This document shows positions 23,337 through 41,883 of a DNA stretch of 64,000 bases, piece after piece. Below the pieces are notes generated by a model that did no database searches, was not told the origin of the DNA, and worked only from the letters and a program-made list of their open reading frames with translations. Both the position numbers and the translations under genes were made by a program. Position 1 is the first letter of the stretch. Each line of letters opens with the position of its first letter. This DNA is from Gammaproteobacteria bacterium HGW-Gammaproteobacteria-1 (GTDB lineage Bacteria; Pseudomonadota; Gammaproteobacteria; Thiohalomonadales; Thiohalomonadaceae), in assembly GCA_002840095.1 (NCBI GenBank), contig PGZL01000003.1:1-64000 (forward strand), given 5' to 3'.

Positions 23337-24311
23337 ATGTCTATGTCGGACTTAGCCGTGCCAGACAATCATGTCGAAGACCGTGCCGTCGCCGCCTATC
23401 TGGGGCTCGCCATCGGCGACGCCCTGGGCGCCACGGTGGAGTTCATGACGCCGCGCGAGATACGCGCCGAATACGGGGTGCACGACACCATACGCGGCGG
23501 CGGCTGGCTGAATCTGCGCTGCGGCGAGGTCACCGACGATACCACCATGGCGCTGGCCCTGGGCCGGTCGATCCTGGAGCAGGGGAAGGTGGATGCCGTG
23601 GCAGCGGCGCGTGCCTTCGACGGCTGGATGCGCGCCAAACCGGTGGATATCGGCAATACCGTGCGGCGCGGCATCCTGCGCTTCCGTCAGAGCGGCGAGC
23701 TCGTCGCGCCACCCAACGATCACGACGCCGGCAACGGCGCCTGCATGCGCGTCCTGCCTGTGGCGCTGGCTACCTTCGGCTATGATCGGACCCGGGTGCG
23801 CGCGGACACCCTGGCCCAGGCCCGCATCACCCACAATCATCCGCTGTCCGATGCCGGAACCCTGTGCGTCGTCGAAATGGTGCAGGCCTTTCTGGCGGGG
23901 CGCAGCCGTGTCGAGGTGTTGCACGAGCACGTGTACCGGCTGATCGAACAGCATTCGCCATTCCGCTTTCGCGGCGGCAAGCCGCGCGAGAATCCCAGCG
24001 GCTACATCGTGGACACCCTGCAGACGGTGTTCCAGTGTTTCTTCGATACCGACAGTTTTGCCGACTGCCTGGTGGAGACGGTCAACCGCGGCGGCGATGC
24101 CGACACCACCGGCGCCATCGCCGGCATGCTGGCCGGCGCCTGTTTCGGGCTGAAGGCAATACCTGACGAATGGATCGATGCGCTGGCGCAGCCGGTGCGG
24201 GAGGCCTGCGCGGCGCAGGCACGGGCGCTGGTGGGTTTGAGCCAACAGACGGTTGCCTGTTGTGGCGCGCCCCACGCCGCCATGGTGCGCGGTGCGCACC
24301 CTACGGTTTGA
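23337..24311 (+). CDS. draG: ADP-ribosyl-[dinitrogen reductase] hydrolase DraG
   Basis: 324 residues of the ADP-ribosylglycohydrolase fold. It removes ADP-ribose from NifH Arg101 and reactivates nitrogenase. Di-metal site motifs are present: GDALGATVEF, EVTDDTTMALALG, GNGACMRV and NRGGDADTTGAIAGM. The last residues (MVRGAHPTV) are encoded by a family B repeat that also supplies the stop. The partner draT lies 3.5 kb downstream on the other strand. Confidence 0.94.
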   Translation: MSMSDLAVPDNHVEDRAVAAYLGLAIGDALGATVEFMTPREIRAEYGVHDTIRGGGWLNLRCGEVTDDTTMALALGRSILEQGKVDAVAAARAFDGWMRAKPVDIGNTVRRGILRFRQSGELVAPPNDHDAGNGACMRVLPVALATFGYDRTRVRADTLAQARITHNHPLSDAGTLCVVEMVQAFLAGRSRVEVLHEHVYRLIEQHSPFRFRGGKPRENPSGYIVDTLQTVFQCFFDTDSFADCLVETVNRGGDADTTGAIAGMLAGACFGLKAIPDEWIDALAQPVREACAAQARALVGLSQQTVACCGAPHAAMVRGAHPTV

Positions 24312-24381: not shown

Positions 24382-25737
24382 TCAGGCGCCGTGCAGGGGA
24401 TGGCGGATATCGCAACACACCACCAGCAAGGCTCCGTTCTGCTCGATGGCCATGGACAGCGTAATGTTCATGGCGGCATCGGTGACGGAGAAATAGGGGC
24501 GTGTCACCTGCACGGTGCCGGGCTCGCTGACGGCGCGGCGGAAGTATGAGCGTCCGCTCCAGTCGCAGCCCGCAGTTTCGCACAGCGGTGCGAAGCGGGG
24601 CTGGGGCGTGGTATCCGCCGTGGGCGCCACGGCGTTGCTGCCGACCTGGATGCCGTTGCCGTCGAGGACGTAGCAGCGCAGTACGTCCGCGGCGGTGAAC
24701 AGCGCTGCCGACGCGGCGGTGATTTCGTCGCCAGCGGCAAGGTTGCCGGCACATTGCCTGAAGGCGTCGATGCAGGGTTGCAGCGCCGCGGCGTGGCGCG
24801 CGGCGCGGTCATGCAGCCGAGCCCGTGCCGTGTCGTTGAGCGTAGCGAAAGCGGAGGCGGAGGCGTGGGTGAGCAGTTCAGCCGCCGCGGGGCGGGCGAA
24901 GAAAAAGCCCTGGGCGAAATCCGCATCGGCCTCGATGGCCAGCAGCGCCTCGGCTTCGTCCTCGATGCCTTCCATCACCACCAGGCAGCCCGCCTCGTGC
25001 AGCAGCGTCACCAGTCCGGGCAGCATGCGGCGCGCGGCGGGATTGTGTCGCGCGTGCTGCATCAGACCGCGATCCAGTTTCACCATGTCCGGTGCCAGGC
25101 GCAGGATGCGATCGAAGTTCGAGTGGCCGGCGCCGAAATCGTCGATGGCCACCAGACAGCCCAGATCCTTGTAGTAGCTCACCGCATCGGCCAGCAGGCC
25201 TTCGTCGGTAATTTCGTTTTCCAGTATTTCCACCACCACTTGGGACGGGCGCAGCGCGCTGCGCGTCAGCAGCTCGGCGAAAAACGGGCCGTACAGACTC
25301 CCTTCGACGACCACCCGGGGGTTGATGTTGAGAAACAGCCAGCGATCCGGTGCCGCCAGCGGCCGGTAGTTCTGAGTGTGCAGGATGCGGCAGGTGCGGT
25401 CGAGATGAACGATGCCTTCGGTGGTTTCGGCACTGGCGAATACCTGCAGCGGCGATACCGCGGCGCCGGACGCGTCGGTGGCTCGCAGCAGCGCCTCGTA
25501 GCCGACGGGGCGGCGGTGGACCAGGCCGAAGATGGGTTGATAGGCGCTGGTCAGTTGATAGCCTTTGAAGGTGGCGGTGGCGCGGCCGCCGTCATCGCGC
25601 ACGGCGTCGTGCAACATCTGTTCGAGAAACGACGCGCGCGTCTGTTCCGCTGTCGGGTGCGACAGCTCCGGGAGCGCCTCGCGGCGGCGGGTATCGCTCA
25701 GTGCCATGGACGGGGTGAATTCAGCGGGGGCGTTCAT
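24382..25737 (-). CDS. EAL-domain c-di-GMP phosphodiesterase with C-terminal sensor domain
   Basis: 451 residues. An EAL domain occupies about residues 60-310 with the expected catalytic set: EALLR, the Asn in FLNINPRVV, EILENEIT, IDDFGAGHSNFD, the Lys in VKLDRG and VMEGIEDEAEA, so hydrolysis of c-di-GMP is likely. The C-terminal third resembles a Cache-type ligand-binding domain (YVLDGNGIQVGSN, WSGRSYFRRAV). No GGDEF domain or membrane segment is evident. Its start overlaps the end of the Cys-rich gene, so the two are coupled and may belong to the NifA-driven SIR2 transcript. Confidence 0.88.
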   Translation of the reverse strand: MNAPAEFTPSMALSDTRRREALPELSHPTAEQTRASFLEQMLHDAVRDDGGRATATFKGYQLTSAYQPIFGLVHRRPVGYEALLRATDASGAAVSPLQVFASAETTEGIVHLDRTCRILHTQNYRPLAAPDRWLFLNINPRVVVEGSLYGPFFAELLTRSALRPSQVVVEILENEITDEGLLADAVSYYKDLGCLVAIDDFGAGHSNFDRILRLAPDMVKLDRGLMQHARHNPAARRMLPGLVTLLHEAGCLVVMEGIEDEAEALLAIEADADFAQGFFFARPAAAELLTHASASAFATLNDTARARLHDRAARHAAALQPCIDAFRQCAGNLAAGDEITAASAALFTAADVLRCYVLDGNGIQVGSNAVAPTADTTPQPRFAPLCETAGCDWSGRSYFRRAVSEPGTVQVTRPYFSVTDAAMNITLSMAIEQNGALLVVCCDIRHPLHGA

Positions 25738-25948
25738 TGCGTGCGGAGGCCACTTTCTTGCTTACCTTGGAAGCCAGGTAGTTGAGGAAGTCGTCCATGT
25801 TGTCGTAGTCCATGTCGAGGGCGAAGGCGGTGACCGTATCGGTGAGCTGACGCAGGCGCGCGATTTCCTCGTGGGAGCGGCCGCAGGCACGGCAGTGGGT
25901 GCCGTCCTCGGTGCAGGCGGTGCGGTTGACGCAGGTGGTGAATTTCAT
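25721..25948 (-). CDS. Small Cys-rich protein, DUF1289-like
   Basis: 75 residues. The N-terminal half has a possible zinc knuckle (CVNRTACTEDGTHCRACGRS) resembling DUF1289; the C-terminal half is helical. ATG 25,948 is preferred; the frame upstream runs into repeat F. It overlaps the start of the EAL gene by 17 bases and follows the SIR2-like gene after a repeat-filled gap. Function unknown. Confidence 0.7.
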   Translation of the reverse strand: MKFTTCVNRTACTEDGTHCRACGRSHEEIARLRQLTDTVTAFALDMDYDNMDDFLNYLASKVSKKVASARNERPR

Positions 25949-25973
25949 GGTGTTCCGGTTCCAATCTTTCTTT

Positions 25974-26127
25974 GCAGGAGCGAATCGTATTCGCGAGGGG
26001 TTGTGCATCTACAGGCAAATCGCGAATACGATGCGCTCCTACATAATATCGGCTGTTGTAGGGTGGATAAGCGCAGCGCATCCACCAAATGCCAAGTCGG
26101 TAGATGCGCTGCGCTTATCTACCCTAC
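25974..26127. repeat. Family F and family C hairpins
   Basis: 25,974-26,042 pairs GCGAATCGTATTCGCGA with TCGCGAATACGATGCGCTCC. 26,058-26,127 is a near copy of the perfect family C hairpin at 22,477. Both lie in the gap between the SIR2-like gene and the Cys-rich gene. Confidence 0.85.
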
Positions 26128-26140
26128 GAGAACTCTGCTC

Positions 26141-26998
26141 CTACACGGCAGCAGATTTTTCCTGTTGCGGCCAGACCCCGTCGAGCAAGGCGCTGTAATC
26201 GGCATCGATCACCTCGATGCCGAGCTTGGCGCAGAAGCGCCGCTCCTTCGCCGTCGCGTTGGGGATCAGCGCCCAGCCGGCGGGCTGCGCCGCGTCGTAA
26301 ACGATATTGGACAGCACCATGCGCTCGGTGTCACGGGTCAGCGACAGGCCGACCAGCAGGTAGCGCATGCCCTTGCGCTGCTGCTTGAGGAAGGAGGGAA
26401 TGGCGAAGCCGCCCATCAGCTCGGTGATGTAATCGACGTAGTCGGCGTCGGCGGCGATATAGCTGGCCTCCGGCTGCGGGCAGCCCATGGGCTTGAACAG
26501 CACCGGCAGCGAGGCGTCGGCTTCTTCCTGCGTCACCTCGCGGTAAGCGCTGCTGTCGTATTGATAGATACGGAAACGGAAGCCGCCGACCATGCGGGCG
26601 AAGCCCTGGATGAGCAAATGCGGTGTGTTGCGGTAGCTGTCCAGCAGCTGCGTATCGCGGTTGATGTCCACCACGTAGCGCGGCTTGATGGCGGCCAGCC
26701 AGTCGTGCAGCGGCGCGCGCGTCCACTGGGTGTCGCCATAGGTGCGGGTGAGAAAGCGGTTGACGAAGCTGCGACCTTTTTTCAGTTCCAGGTTCATGGC
26801 GGCGCGGGGGAATTCGTACATCAGCTTGGGTGCCATGGGTTTGCCGCCGTTCATGGCCAGGATCAGGCTTTCGCCGTCGGCGGGGATGGGGGCGCCGGCT
26901 GCGTCGACGGCGCCGCGCAGGGCGCCGGGGCCGAGGTAGGCGGCGATGCTGCCGTCTTTCAGGCCGGCAACGATTTCATCGAGGTGCAGAGTGGTCAT
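26141..26998 (-). CDS. SIR2-like protein, predicted member of the NifA regulon
   Basis: 285 residues. The layout fits SIR2-like NAD-binding proteins: an N-terminal glycine loop (SIAAYLGPGALRG), RYVVDINRDTQL in place of the usual TTNYD segment, and RYLLVGLSLTRDTERM like the FIGYSLSD strand. The catalytic His-Gly region appears altered (FKPMGCPQPE), so hydrolysis is uncertain. ATG 26,998 has AAGGAG at ideal distance; an upstream ATG (27,037) would lie in the promoter. Sigma-54 and NifA sites precede it, and draT and nifH are neighbours, hinting at an NAD-linked role in nitrogenase control. Confidence 0.75.
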   Translation of the reverse strand: MTTLHLDEIVAGLKDGSIAAYLGPGALRGAVDAAGAPIPADGESLILAMNGGKPMAPKLMYEFPRAAMNLELKKGRSFVNRFLTRTYGDTQWTRAPLHDWLAAIKPRYVVDINRDTQLLDSYRNTPHLLIQGFARMVGGFRFRIYQYDSSAYREVTQEEADASLPVLFKPMGCPQPEASYIAADADYVDYITELMGGFAIPSFLKQQRKGMRYLLVGLSLTRDTERMVLSNIVYDAAQPAGWALIPNATAKERRFCAKLGIEVIDADYSALLDGVWPQQEKSAAV

Positions 26999-27032: not shown

Positions 27033-27048
27033 TGCAATTAGCGGGCCT
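27033..27048 (-). promoter_or_regulatory. Sigma-54 promoter of the SIR2-like gene
   Basis: Read on the minus strand: AGGCCC-GCTAA-TTGCA, with the invariant GG and GC ten bases apart. Start codon 26,998 is 35 bases downstream, leaving a short leader containing AAGGAG. The first base A matches the nifB promoter. Confidence 0.7.
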
Positions 27049-27110: not shown

Positions 27111-27126
27111 TGTCGCGAACGTGACA
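27111..27126 (-). promoter_or_regulatory. NifA upstream activator sequence for the SIR2-like gene
   Basis: TGT-CGCGAACGTG-ACA on the plus strand, an exact TGT-N10-ACA site that starts TGTCGC like those of nifV, nifH and nifE. It is about 70 bases ahead of the sigma-54 promoter. Confidence 0.75.
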
Positions 27127-27152: not shown

Positions 27153-27563
27153 TCATTGCGCCCAGTTTTCCACCCGCAGCCCGTCGATACGCTTGAATTC
27201 GCGGCCGTTGTTGGTGACCAGGGTGAGGTCTTCGGCCAGGGCATGGGCAGCAATCCACAGGTCGTTGTTGCCGATGGGAGTGCCGGATTTTTCGAGCTTG
27301 GTGCGTATCACGCCATAGATTTGCCCGGCCGTCTTCGGCAAGGCCTTGACGTTGATGATTTCCGTCATCTGGTTCAGTGCCGCCAGATTCTGCTCGTGGT
27401 GCAGGCTGCGCTCCACACCTCGCCGGAGTTCTCCATAGGCGATCACCGACATACTCACCGCATCATCCGGCAGGGCGGCGATGCGTTCCGCTACTGAGGC
27501 AGGATGGCGTTTGATGAAGTAAATGCAGATGTCCGTATCCAGCAAATAGCGTGATTCCTTCAC
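27153..27563 (-). CDS. vapC: VapC-type PIN-domain ribonuclease toxin
   Basis: 136 residues. The acidic PIN active-site residues are visible in YLLDTDICIYFIK, YGELRRGVE and GNNDLWIAAHAL, followed by LVTNNGREF. VapC toxins cleave tRNA or rRNA when VapB is lost. It overlaps vapB by four bases. Confidence 0.92.
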   Translation of the reverse strand: MKESRYLLDTDICIYFIKRHPASVAERIAALPDDAVSMSVIAYGELRRGVERSLHHEQNLAALNQMTEIINVKALPKTAGQIYGVIRTKLEKSGTPIGNNDLWIAAHALAEDLTLVTNNGREFKRIDGLRVENWAQ

Positions 27564-27790
27564 AGTTCTTCCCTCTCCTGCGGTGGCTGATCCTCGCGGC
27601 CGTCAGCCATGAAGTCGTCGGAAAAGCTCTCGAATATCTTGAGAATGTCCGCCGCCGAGCGCTTTTTCTCGCGTAGCACGATTTCGTCGCCGCGACGGAA
27701 TATCTCCACTTCAGTGGCGTCGAAGCGGAACTCCTTGGGCAGCCGGATCGCCTGGCTGTTGCCGGATTTGAATACGCGGGCGGTGGCCAT
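27560..27790 (-). CDS. vapB: VapB-type antitoxin
   Basis: 76 residues with an N-terminal AbrB/SpoVT swapped-hairpin domain (ARVFKSGNSQAIRLPKEFRF) and an acidic C-terminal tail that would wrap the toxin. It lies first in the operon, as usual. The pair sits inside the nif island between the SIR2-like gene and draT. Confidence 0.92.
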   Translation of the reverse strand: MATARVFKSGNSQAIRLPKEFRFDATEVEIFRRGDEIVLREKKRSAADILKIFESFSDDFMADGREDQPPQEREEL

Positions 27791-27862: not shown

Positions 27863-28705
27863 TCAGGCCGCGATACAGACCTCATACACCCCGCCGATGA
27901 CTATGTACTCGTCCTCGCCCTTGAGCCGGCCCGGCAGCAGGCGGCTGTAGGCGAGGATCTTCGGCAGCGGCACGTCCACCTCCAGGATGCGGTCGCCGAA
28001 TTCGTCGGCCCGTTCGCGCTGGTCGGTGAAGGAGTTGGCGCTATTGAGGATGAGGATCTGCCGGCCCTTGTCGGGGCTGGCCAATACGTCGTGTTGTTCC
28101 AGGCGGTTCACCCCGCGGTACAGGCGCAGGTGTTGCGTGTCCGGATGCTGCCGCGCCAGTTCGTATTGGCAATAGGCATAGAGCAGGTCGAGCTGGGCCT
28201 CCAGGGCGTTGGTGCTGTACAGGCCTTGGGCGCGTGATTCCATATAGGCGTGATAGGCCGCGTCGTTGACGTCGCGGATCGGCGCGCCGTGATGGCGCGG
28301 CAGCAGGCCGAAGCGCGATTCCACCCAGCCTTTTACTACCGCCCCCTCGCGGCCGTCGGCATCGAAGGACCAGCCGCGCAGCACGCGCAGGTAGTCCGCC
28401 TTGTCGCGGTGCAGCCGCGAGGACGGATCGAAGCCCGCCTCTTCCGGTGCATCGAGCAGGAAGTGCGCGGCGAGGTAATCCATGAACAGGTGGGCGCGGT
28501 GTTCGGCGCGCTCCAGCGGCGCCAGGCGGCGGAACAATTCACCGTGCAGTTCGGCCACGCCGTCGATGTGCAGCGCGGCGGGGTGGCGCTGAAAGGTGAG
28601 GCTGCCGAGGATTACCGCCGGCAGGTTGCAGCGGTTGATGGGCAGGCGCGCGCAGGCCGGCAGCGAGGGATTTTTTCCGGTGTCGGGTGCTTTGTCGCTA
28701 ACCAT
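27863..28705 (-). CDS. draT: NAD+-dinitrogen-reductase ADP-D-ribosyltransferase DraT
   Basis: 280 residues. DraT transfers ADP-ribose from NAD+ to NifH Arg101 under ammonium or darkness/energy stress. Family segments include LPINRCNLPAVILGSLTFQ near residue 22, LRLYRGVNRLEQHD, the STS-like NSANSFTDQRERADEFG, and the acidic EDEYIVIGG near the C-terminus. It is transcribed away from nifH; its first codons overlap the NifA site of the nifH promoter. It is not next to draG, unlike most draTG operons. Confidence 0.93.
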   Translation of the reverse strand: MVSDKAPDTGKNPSLPACARLPINRCNLPAVILGSLTFQRHPAALHIDGVAELHGELFRRLAPLERAEHRAHLFMDYLAAHFLLDAPEEAGFDPSSRLHRDKADYLRVLRGWSFDADGREGAVVKGWVESRFGLLPRHHGAPIRDVNDAAYHAYMESRAQGLYSTNALEAQLDLLYAYCQYELARQHPDTQHLRLYRGVNRLEQHDVLASPDKGRQILILNSANSFTDQRERADEFGDRILEVDVPLPKILAYSRLLPGRLKGEDEYIVIGGVYEVCIAA

Positions 28706-39933: not shown

Positions 39934-40311
39934 ATGAAAATTTTTATCAGGGCGATGCCGTTGCTGACGGTAATGATGTTTCCGTACTCCTTGCACGCGG
40001 CGGAGGTAAGCAAGAGCGACTGGATAAGTGCGATGACTACCGTACTACCGACGGCGTTTTGCAATTCCAGCCAGTACTTCAGGCAGTGTTTCAACGTCAC
40101 GGCCCAGGAGTGCGAAGAGACGGCGGCGTCTGCAGCACGGGTCTGCCTGAACAAGAACAAGGACCAGATCCCGGAGGTGTTGCATCAGCCCCAGGATGGC
40201 ACGCACTGGGGCACGGTAGTCGGCGCCTGCGCCGGCGAGGCCTACGAACTGGCCCTGGTCAAGAAACGCATCAGCAACAGCAAGTGCGACGATCCGGCCA
40301 ATTGGCAATAG
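39934..40311 (+). CDS. Secreted Cys-rich hypothetical protein
   Basis: 125 residues. The signal peptide MKIFIRAMPLLTVMMFPYSL-HAA precedes a mature domain with six cysteines, probably disulfide-bonded in the periplasm (FCNSSQYFRQCFNVTAQECE). AATGGGGGGAAATA serves as ribosome-binding site. No family recognised; it lies between two nif operons without visible nif control. Confidence 0.65.
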   Translation: MKIFIRAMPLLTVMMFPYSLHAAEVSKSDWISAMTTVLPTAFCNSSQYFRQCFNVTAQECEETAASAARVCLNKNKDQIPEVLHQPQDGTHWGTVVGACAGEAYELALVKKRISNSKCDDPANWQ

Positions 40312-40384
40312 CTGTGTCCATGTAGGGATGGTCGTGCTCCGATGCGCACAAGAGGCGGCCGGAATGTCGCCTTAGCCACCCCAT

Positions 40385-40400
40385 TGTCGCGTTTGTTACA
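40385..40400 (+). promoter_or_regulatory. NifA upstream activator sequence for nifE
   Basis: TGT-CGCGTTTGTT-ACA, exact TGT-N10-ACA, almost the same spacer as at nifV, about 55 bases ahead of the -24 element. Confidence 0.8.
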
Positions 40401-40444
40401 CACGACAATTCATAAAACCATAATAAATACAATGAAGTAACACA

Positions 40445-40460
40445 TGGCACGGCGGTTGCT
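40445..40460 (+). promoter_or_regulatory. Sigma-54 promoter of nifENX
   Basis: TGGCAC-GGCGG-TTGCT, same 16 bases as the nifH promoter. It shows that the ATG at 40,444 cannot be the nifE start. Confidence 0.95.
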
Positions 40461-40497
40461 GAAGGAATATCAAACCTTCAGCCCCCAAGGTGCCGCC

Positions 40498-41883
40498 ATG
40501 CAGCCGAAAGACATCGCCGCCCTGCTCGACGAACCGGCCTGTGCCCACAACACCAAGGAAAAGTCCGGTTGTGCCCGGCCCAAGCCCGGCTCCACCGCCG
40601 GCGGCTGCGCCTTCGACGGCGCGCAGATTGCCCTGCTGCCCATCGCCGACGTGGCCCACATCGTCCACGGCCCCATTGCCTGTGCCGGTTCTTCCTGGGA
40701 CAACCGCGGCACCCGTTCCACCGGGCCGACGCTGTACCGCATCGGCATGACCACCGACCTTACCGAGCAGGACGTGATCATGGGCCGCTCGGAGAAGCGG
40801 CTGTTTCACTCCATCAAGCAGGCCATCGACAGCTATTCCCCCGCGGCGGTGTTCATCTATAACACCTGCGTGCCTGCCCTCATCGGCGACGACGTCGACG
40901 CCATCTGCAAGGCGGCGGCGGAGAAGTGGGGCGTGCCGGTGGTGCCGGTGGACGGCGCCGGCTTTTACGGCACCAAGAATCTGGGCAACCGCATCGCCGG
41001 CGAGGCGATGGTGAAGCACGTCATCGGCACCCGCGAGCCCGATCCGCTGCCCGCCGGCAGCGAGCGGCCCGGCATCACGGTGCACGACATCAACCTCATC
41101 GGTGAGTACAACATCGCCGGCGAGCTGTGGCACGTGCTGCCGCTGCTGGACGAACTGGGCCTGCGCGTGCTGTGCACGCTGTCGGGCGACGCGCGCTTCC
41201 GCGAGGTGCAGACCATGCATCGCGCCGAGGTGAACATGATGGTCTGCTCCAAGGCCATGGTGAACGTGGCGCGCAAGCTGGAGCAGAAATACGGCACGCC
41301 GTGGTTCGAGGGCAGCTTCTACGGCGTGCGCGACGTCAGCCAGGCGCTGCGCGACTTTGCCCGCCTGATCAATGACCCGGATCTGACCGTCCGCACCGAG
41401 CAGGTGATTGCCCGCGAGGAGGCCAAGGCCGATGCCCTGCTGCAGCCGTGGCGCGAACGCCTCGACGGCCGCCGCGCGCTGCTCTACACCGGCGGCGTGA
41501 AGTCCTGGTCGGTGATCTCGGCCCTGCAGGACCTCGGCCTCAAGGTGGTGGCCACCGGCACCAACAAGTCCACCGAAGAGGACAAGGCGCGCATCCGCGA
41601 GCTGATGGGACCGGACGTGAAGATGCTGGACGAGGGCAGCCCGCGCGCGCTGCTCGACACCGTGCGCGACTACCAGGCCGACATCCTCATCGCCGGCGGC
41701 CGCAACATGTACACCGCGCTCAAGGCGCGCATCCCCTTCCTCGACATCAACCAGGAACGCGAATTTGGCTACGCCGGTTATGCCGGCATGGCGGAACTGG
41801 CACGTCAGCTGGCGCTCACCATCGAAAACCCCATCTGGCCGGCGTTGCGCAAGAGCGCGCCGTGGGAGGGGCCGGCGGAATGA
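40498..41883 (+). CDS. nifE: FeMo-cofactor scaffold subunit NifE
   Basis: 461 residues, NifD paralogue that with NifN holds the cofactor precursor while Mo and homocitrate are added. Conserved Cys positions are seen in [35 protein letters not shown] and [14 protein letters not shown] 40,498 is 37 bases after the sigma-54 promoter. Confidence 0.96.

Follow-up and report, generated by a model that had tools for sequence, protein, structure and literature searches.

In the published work that we found, nitrogen and c-di-GMP are linked either through protein binding by PII or through global sigma-54/Rsm circuits, as far as the available parts of the two sources describe (PMC7646526, PMC8249394). 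In Azospirillum brasilense, the PII protein GlnZ controls c-di-GMP enzymes, and the available part of that account extends the connection to aerotaxis and flocculation (PMC7646526). The operon proposed here would likewise connect nitrogen status to c-di-GMP, but through NifA-driven transcription rather than the protein binding described for PII in the accessible sections of the source (PMC7646526). In Pseudomonas stutzeri, an RpoN/Gac/Rsm network in which c-di-GMP is involved governs the nitrogen-fixing biofilm, so that there, too, sigma-54 couples nitrogen fixation to biofilm; in contrast to our proposal, the portion of the source available describes no c-di-GMP enzyme within a nif operon (PMC8249394). 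The same portion reports that biofilm is unchanged in a nifA mutant, which argues that a link between NifA and lifestyle is not general (PMC8249394). The nif cluster of Zymomonas mobilis contains a SIR2-like hypothetical gene, ZMO1821, as the cluster studied here does, although the accessible text mentions no EAL gene and the likeness is one of description (PMC8594446). In the open literature searched, we found no report of an EAL gene or cyclic di-GMP phosphodiesterase within a nif cluster.

Among proteins of known structure, YkuI of Bacillus subtilis (PDB 2bas, 2w27) is the nearest full-length relative of the EAL protein of our locus, with which it shares an EAL domain and, after it, a cytosolic domain of Cache/PAS-like type. 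However, YkuI reads EVL and AVDN where the EAL family of the window reads EAL and DD, and thus lacks the Asp pair that the window protein keeps. We know of no nif linkage for YkuI. It is described as inactive (PMC5422440), and as a putative receptor, in the available parts of two sources (PMC5422440, PMC11357230). The structurally closest EAL domain is that of a stand-alone EAL protein of Vibrio cholerae (6ifq, 6ij2; Z 24.9 to 6ij2, rmsd 2.2 over 223 residues), which has the same catalytic residues as the window protein but no C-terminal Cache domain in its total of 257 residues. Here we compare these systems with a locus in the window, the whole stretch of 64,000 nucleotides that was analysed. 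As the best explanation, to which we assign a probability of roughly 0.6, we propose that the locus is a NifA operon that encodes an active, ligand-gated phosphodiesterase lowering c-di-GMP.

Three genes in line between draT and draG

The SIR2-like, Cys-rich and EAL genes form one line on the minus strand, between draT (27863-28705, minus strand; PF07357, 343 bits) and the convergent draG (23337-24311, plus strand; TIGR02662, 410 bits against a cut-off of 337), which bounds the proposed operon. The SIR2-like gene (26141-26998, minus strand), putatively the first of the operon, encodes 285 residues that match Pfam SIR2_2 (E 3.1e-07, 31 bits, cut-off 24.5). It is followed by the Cys-rich gene (CVNRTACTEDGTHCRACGRSHEEIAR...; 25721-25948, minus strand), whose 75-residue product has four Cys and matches no Pfam family at E 1e-3; a likeness to DUF1289 lies below the Pfam cut-off, the ortholog in locus L052 scoring 16.2 bits against 27. 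The EAL phosphodiesterase-like gene (24382-25737, minus strand), encoding 451 residues with a C-terminal Cache (YkuI_C-like) domain, is the last before draG. The preliminary description had placed the three genes in line, with the last two overlapping by 17 bases, and the open reading frames bear out both points; the overlap measures 17 nt in the genome of the window (G000), and its length is exactly the same in the two congeners G001 and G003.

The toxin-antitoxin genes vapC and vapB (27153-27790, minus strand) occupy the interval from draT to the predicted SIR2 promoter and fall outside the proposed operon; this pair is present in G000, G003 and G013, and absent from G001, G016 and G103. Beyond draG lie nifB, fdxN, an ArsC/NifO-like gene and nifQ, and beyond draT lie nifHDK, several of these names being presumed from nif order.

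A SIR2-like family linked to nif

Among 114 related genomes, 14 have a strong match to the SIR2-like protein and all 14 carry nifH, 13 of them with a match over the cut-off and one, G098, with a gene cut by a contig end. There are 17 nifH genomes, the three without a strong SIR2-like match being G076, G087 and G032, and no strong match occurs in the other 97 genomes, which are without nifH. G032 has a distant SIR2-like match near its nif genes: the divergent gene at locus L055 (G032:C3), which is 24% identical, is close to nifB and nifH, suggesting that the link between SIR2 and nif may predate the aligned family.

The family is strongly conserved and, in an alignment of 14 orthologs, reads LGP.AL and KPMG. 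Sirtuins carry an NAD-binding GAG[AI]S motif and a catalytic His. As the nif-linked SIR2-like protein has LGP.AL and KPMG in place of these motifs, its sequence suggests that it probably differs from ordinary deacylases. When it was searched against the PDB with E up to 1, only one match was returned, at E 0.26.

Searching genome contigs yielded 439 SIR2-like relatives, of which the best 80 were kept. The 14 loci from the related genomes and 76 from named contigs, drawn from these best 80 of 439, make up a set of 90 after removal of duplicates; the promoter and downstream-gene counts omit L071, L072, L088 and L148, which duplicate G003, G004, G098 and G010, and the divergent L055 enters none of them.

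The EAL gene and other genes that follow SIR2

This EAL gene lies downstream on the strand of SIR2 at six of the 90 loci (from the relatives and the best 80 of 439), and the remaining 84 are without it at that place. Ten of the 14 SIR2-bearing relatives have no such EAL protein; in all four that have both, the two genes are clustered on one strand. G000 and its congeners G001 and G003 share the gene order SIR2, Cys-rich, EAL, draG. G005, from the same family but another genus, has no Cys-rich gene at this position, and the first 8 nt of its EAL gene overlap the end of SIR2; in L073, a Chromatiales MAG, the two genes are separated by 7 nt. This abutting or overlapping of EAL with SIR2 is the strongest sign of a shared transcript. 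At locus L094, from a gammaproteobacterial MAG, SIR2 is followed by a dCache-GGDEF protein, a diguanylate cyclase (L094:10932-12743), and then by EAL, with draG further along.

A general association of this EAL subfamily with nif was dismissed because the subfamily is found mostly outside nif clusters. Of 369 genomes of the class, 14 have a strong match to the EAL C-terminal domain (>75 bits), only G000 and G001 among these 14 carry the SIR2-like gene (E 1e-40), and no nif genes were found within the stretch viewed around the 12 other loci. The alternative that survives best is that one recombination event in a single lineage placed the EAL gene between SIR2/Cys-rich and draG, and that the gene then spread with the whole nif cluster, in which case its linkage would say little about its function. 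A single clade of nif-linked EAL proteins is indeed not rejected (p-AU 0.067); however, no single clade of them is supported and the tree needs four changes, the gene occurs in three arrangements (after the Cys-rich gene, directly after SIR2 and after a diguanylate cyclase), and at L076 the slot holds a diguanylate cyclase alone. We consider such a single origin unlikely.

The slot after SIR2 also holds genes of other kinds. A hemerythrin-like gene follows SIR2 (and the Cys-rich gene) at 19 of the 90 loci (from the relatives and the best 80 of 439; assigned by Pfam at two), a count that misses L054 owing to wrong frames chosen for some loci. Such genes were seen after SIR2 at L052, L054, L074, L080, L081, L084, L086, L095, L104-L106 and L109, and further at L112, L113, L119, L128, L136, L138, L147 and L150. 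In the Zetaproteobacteria loci L080, L096 and L137, superoxide dismutase, rhodanese-ankyrin and glutaredoxin-like genes come after SIR2, one dismutase being assigned by Pfam and the other names by eye. The L076 slot, in a Comamonadaceae MAG, is filled by a PAS-GAF-GGDEF protein, a diguanylate cyclase without EAL (L076:10847-13435), and that of L089 holds, as judged by eye, a Cache protein whose tail resembles CheW. Because lineages were unweighted, these slot counts do not represent independent events. The variety of genes after SIR2 suggests a NifA-driven operon with exchangeable oxygen, redox and signalling cargo.

A predicted NifA promoter and dispersed palindromes

Ahead of the SIR2-like gene, on the minus strand, lies a NifA upstream activator-like site of the form TGT-N10-ACA (TGTCACGTTCGCGACA, 27111-27126), 78 nt before the -24 element of a sigma-54 promoter-like sequence of the form GG-N10-GC (AGGCCCGCTAATTGCA, 27033-27048; score 13.5 of 15.5). 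This arrangement is that of the NifA/sigma-54 regulon, and expression is predicted to depend on it. The same pair of sites precedes the SIR2-like gene at 67 of 83 assessable loci, compared with 9 of 1660 dinucleotide shuffles; seven of the 90 loci were set aside, five without an anchor motif and two too short. All five direct EAL loci are among those with the pair, and at the sixth, L094, which stood outside the scripted count, both sites are visible by eye. The 64-kb window contains seven NifA/sigma-54 pairs, one of them ahead of nifH, against a mean of 0.8 in shuffled windows. A strong pair at 40300-40617 (plus strand; score 15.5 at 40445) probably marks the start of another nif operon. The gene for NifA itself lies on another contig (TIGR01817; the main stretch scores 629.6 bits, or 706.7 with its neighbour, against a cut-off of 528.85).

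A separate promoter for the Cys-rich/EAL pair, which the preliminary description had named as a possible objection to a shared transcript, did not emerge from our scans. They revealed neither a second NifA site ahead of the pair nor a minus-strand sigma-70-like site separating it from SIR2; in the gap between SIR2 and the Cys-rich gene, NifA sites and sigma-54 sites scoring at least 12 are both absent. Inside the SIR2 gene of the window lies a single weak sigma-54-like match, which has no accompanying NifA site. An own NifA promoter for the pair was likewise rejected at L041, L042, L043, L045 and the scanned part of L073, where the stretch from the start of SIR2 to that of EAL yielded no NifA site; weak sigma-54-like matches without a NifA site, scoring 12 and 12.5, fall inside the SIR2 genes of L041 and L042.

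The hairpins that had been noted at 25974-26127 are real, the gap between SIR2 and the Cys-rich gene folding very stably (RNA fold z-score -10.1). Both are dispersed palindromes on the minus strand: with up to three mismatches, hairpin 1 (26062-26123) has 19 matches in the 4.2 Mb genome and the REP-like hairpin 2 (25974-26042) has 100, while reversed-pattern controls gave none for either. With so many copies genome-wide, both resemble REP/BIME palindromes. No T-tract follows the stem, no run of four or more T occurs in the G000 gap, and the scan found no terminator-like site on the minus strand at 25974-26127. Since they are dispersed palindromes without a T-tract, the hairpins are unlikely to be dedicated terminators, and that assignment was rejected; palindromes of this strength could possibly attenuate transcription, trigger Rho or alter RNA stability differentially. 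In the same gap, G001 carries a different dispersed palindrome (17 matches in its own genome, with one TTTT inside the gap) and G003 a hairpin of another sequence. The differences between genomes at one gap suggest that it collects repeats. Outside the window on the same contig, a dense array of hairpin-2 palindromes lies at G000:C59:220197-233467.

The very stable hairpins, the palindrome of G001 and the hairpin of G003 in the same gap and the predominance of the EAL subfamily outside nif clusters could be read to mean that the Cys-rich/EAL pair rides along as a passenger and has weak or constitutive expression of its own, the palindromes ending or cutting the NifA transcript, in which case no nitrogen-dependent change in c-di-GMP would be expected. 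We judge this quite improbable, given that the gap offers neither a minus-strand sigma-70-like, NifA or sigma-54 site (of score 12 or above) nor a T-tract, and that EAL overlaps or abuts SIR2 in G005 and L073. The sequence comparisons thus leave it likely that the SIR2-like, Cys-rich and EAL genes are co-transcribed. The earlier suggestion that the EAL gene is read from a NifA-driven transcript has gained comparative support from the promoter and from the adjacency in G005 and L073, whereas the passage of transcription through the palindromes is a step that we infer.

An EAL protein with a complete catalytic set and a Cache-like domain

The EAL domain of the window protein scores above the family cut-off (PF00563, 165 bits against 31.3, E 2.3e-48). 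The preliminary description had recognized all the catalytic EAL motifs, and E81, N137, E170, E173, D199, D200, K220, E256 and Q276 prove invariant in a nine-sequence family alignment; the metal-binding and general-base residues are among them. The catalytic residues align with those of the Vibrio cholerae EAL protein 6ifq. Between congeners, the EAL gene shows dN/dS of 0.27-0.36, indicating purifying selection.

A Cache-like domain had also been proposed to follow the EAL domain, and the fold model and its structural matches agree. Folded alone, the C-terminal domain gave a pLDDT of 89, and a Foldseek search ranked YkuI first. The domain aligns with the C-terminal domain of YkuI at Z 11.3 (rmsd 3.1, 142 residues) and, at Z of about 12-13, with Cache domains that bind ligands in chemoreceptors, several of which are receptors for amino acids. 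The Pfam YkuI_C model scored 11.1 bits, below its cut-off of 26. YkuI was likewise the best Foldseek match of the full EAL model. Searched against the PDB with phmmer at E 1e-20, the window EAL protein returned no matches, whereas a profile search did find structures. On inspection of the sequence and the fold model, no transmembrane segment is apparent.

The EAL and DD residues that are absent from YkuI are kept here, which makes an active phosphodiesterase the better reading, and from its sequence the protein is quite probably active on c-di-GMP. The least likely of the alternatives is that it serves as a c-di-GMP-binding effector acting on a partner such as the SIR2-like or Cys-rich protein, as its two-domain architecture, shared with a protein that the accessible parts of the sources present as inactive and as a putative receptor, might suggest (PMC5422440, PMC11357230), but EAL and DD in place of the EVL and AVDN of YkuI, with the full catalytic set in nine of nine family members, point to an enzyme.

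Discussion

In the reading that we prefer, a NifA-activated sigma-54 promoter (27126-27033, minus strand) would drive an operon of the SIR2-like, Cys-rich and EAL genes, in which the EAL gene would be a lineage-specific 3′ cargo whose translation is coupled to that of the preceding gene. Its product would be a soluble c-di-GMP phosphodiesterase, with a small molecule on the cytosolic Cache domain probably gating its activity. Produced alongside nitrogenase, this enzyme would reduce c-di-GMP either locally or throughout the cell, and we hypothesize that c-di-GMP is lower during nitrogen fixation, which may favour motility or release from biofilm in nitrogen-fixing cells. Given the 38 EAL matches in the G000 genome, 35 of which cover at least 160 of 236 model positions, a global effect on c-di-GMP is doubtful. 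A measurable effect of the EAL gene on lifestyle is conceivable, though somewhat less than an even prospect.

The genes that follow SIR2 in other diazotrophs place the EAL gene in a broader setting. Tentatively, the NifA-driven SIR2-like operon beside draT and draG may be a response module tied to nitrogenase, with a 3′ slot whose content is exchangeable, so that oxygen defence and lifestyle switching would be alternative answers to one need. Depending on the diazotroph, the slot would perhaps be filled by an oxygen-binding hemerythrin, by superoxide dismutase and glutaredoxin, by a diguanylate cyclase or by an EAL phosphodiesterase.

The recurrence of the arrangement in a few other nitrogen fixers suggests that the making of nitrogenase may be coupled to a change in motility or biofilm state. 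If true, the nitrogenase regulator would be connected with motility or biofilm state directly and in a single step, through a c-di-GMP enzyme encoded in a NifA operon. How diazotrophs match their lifestyle to nitrogenase thereby becomes testable, and the locus points to a widespread, little-studied SIR2-like operon linked to nif.
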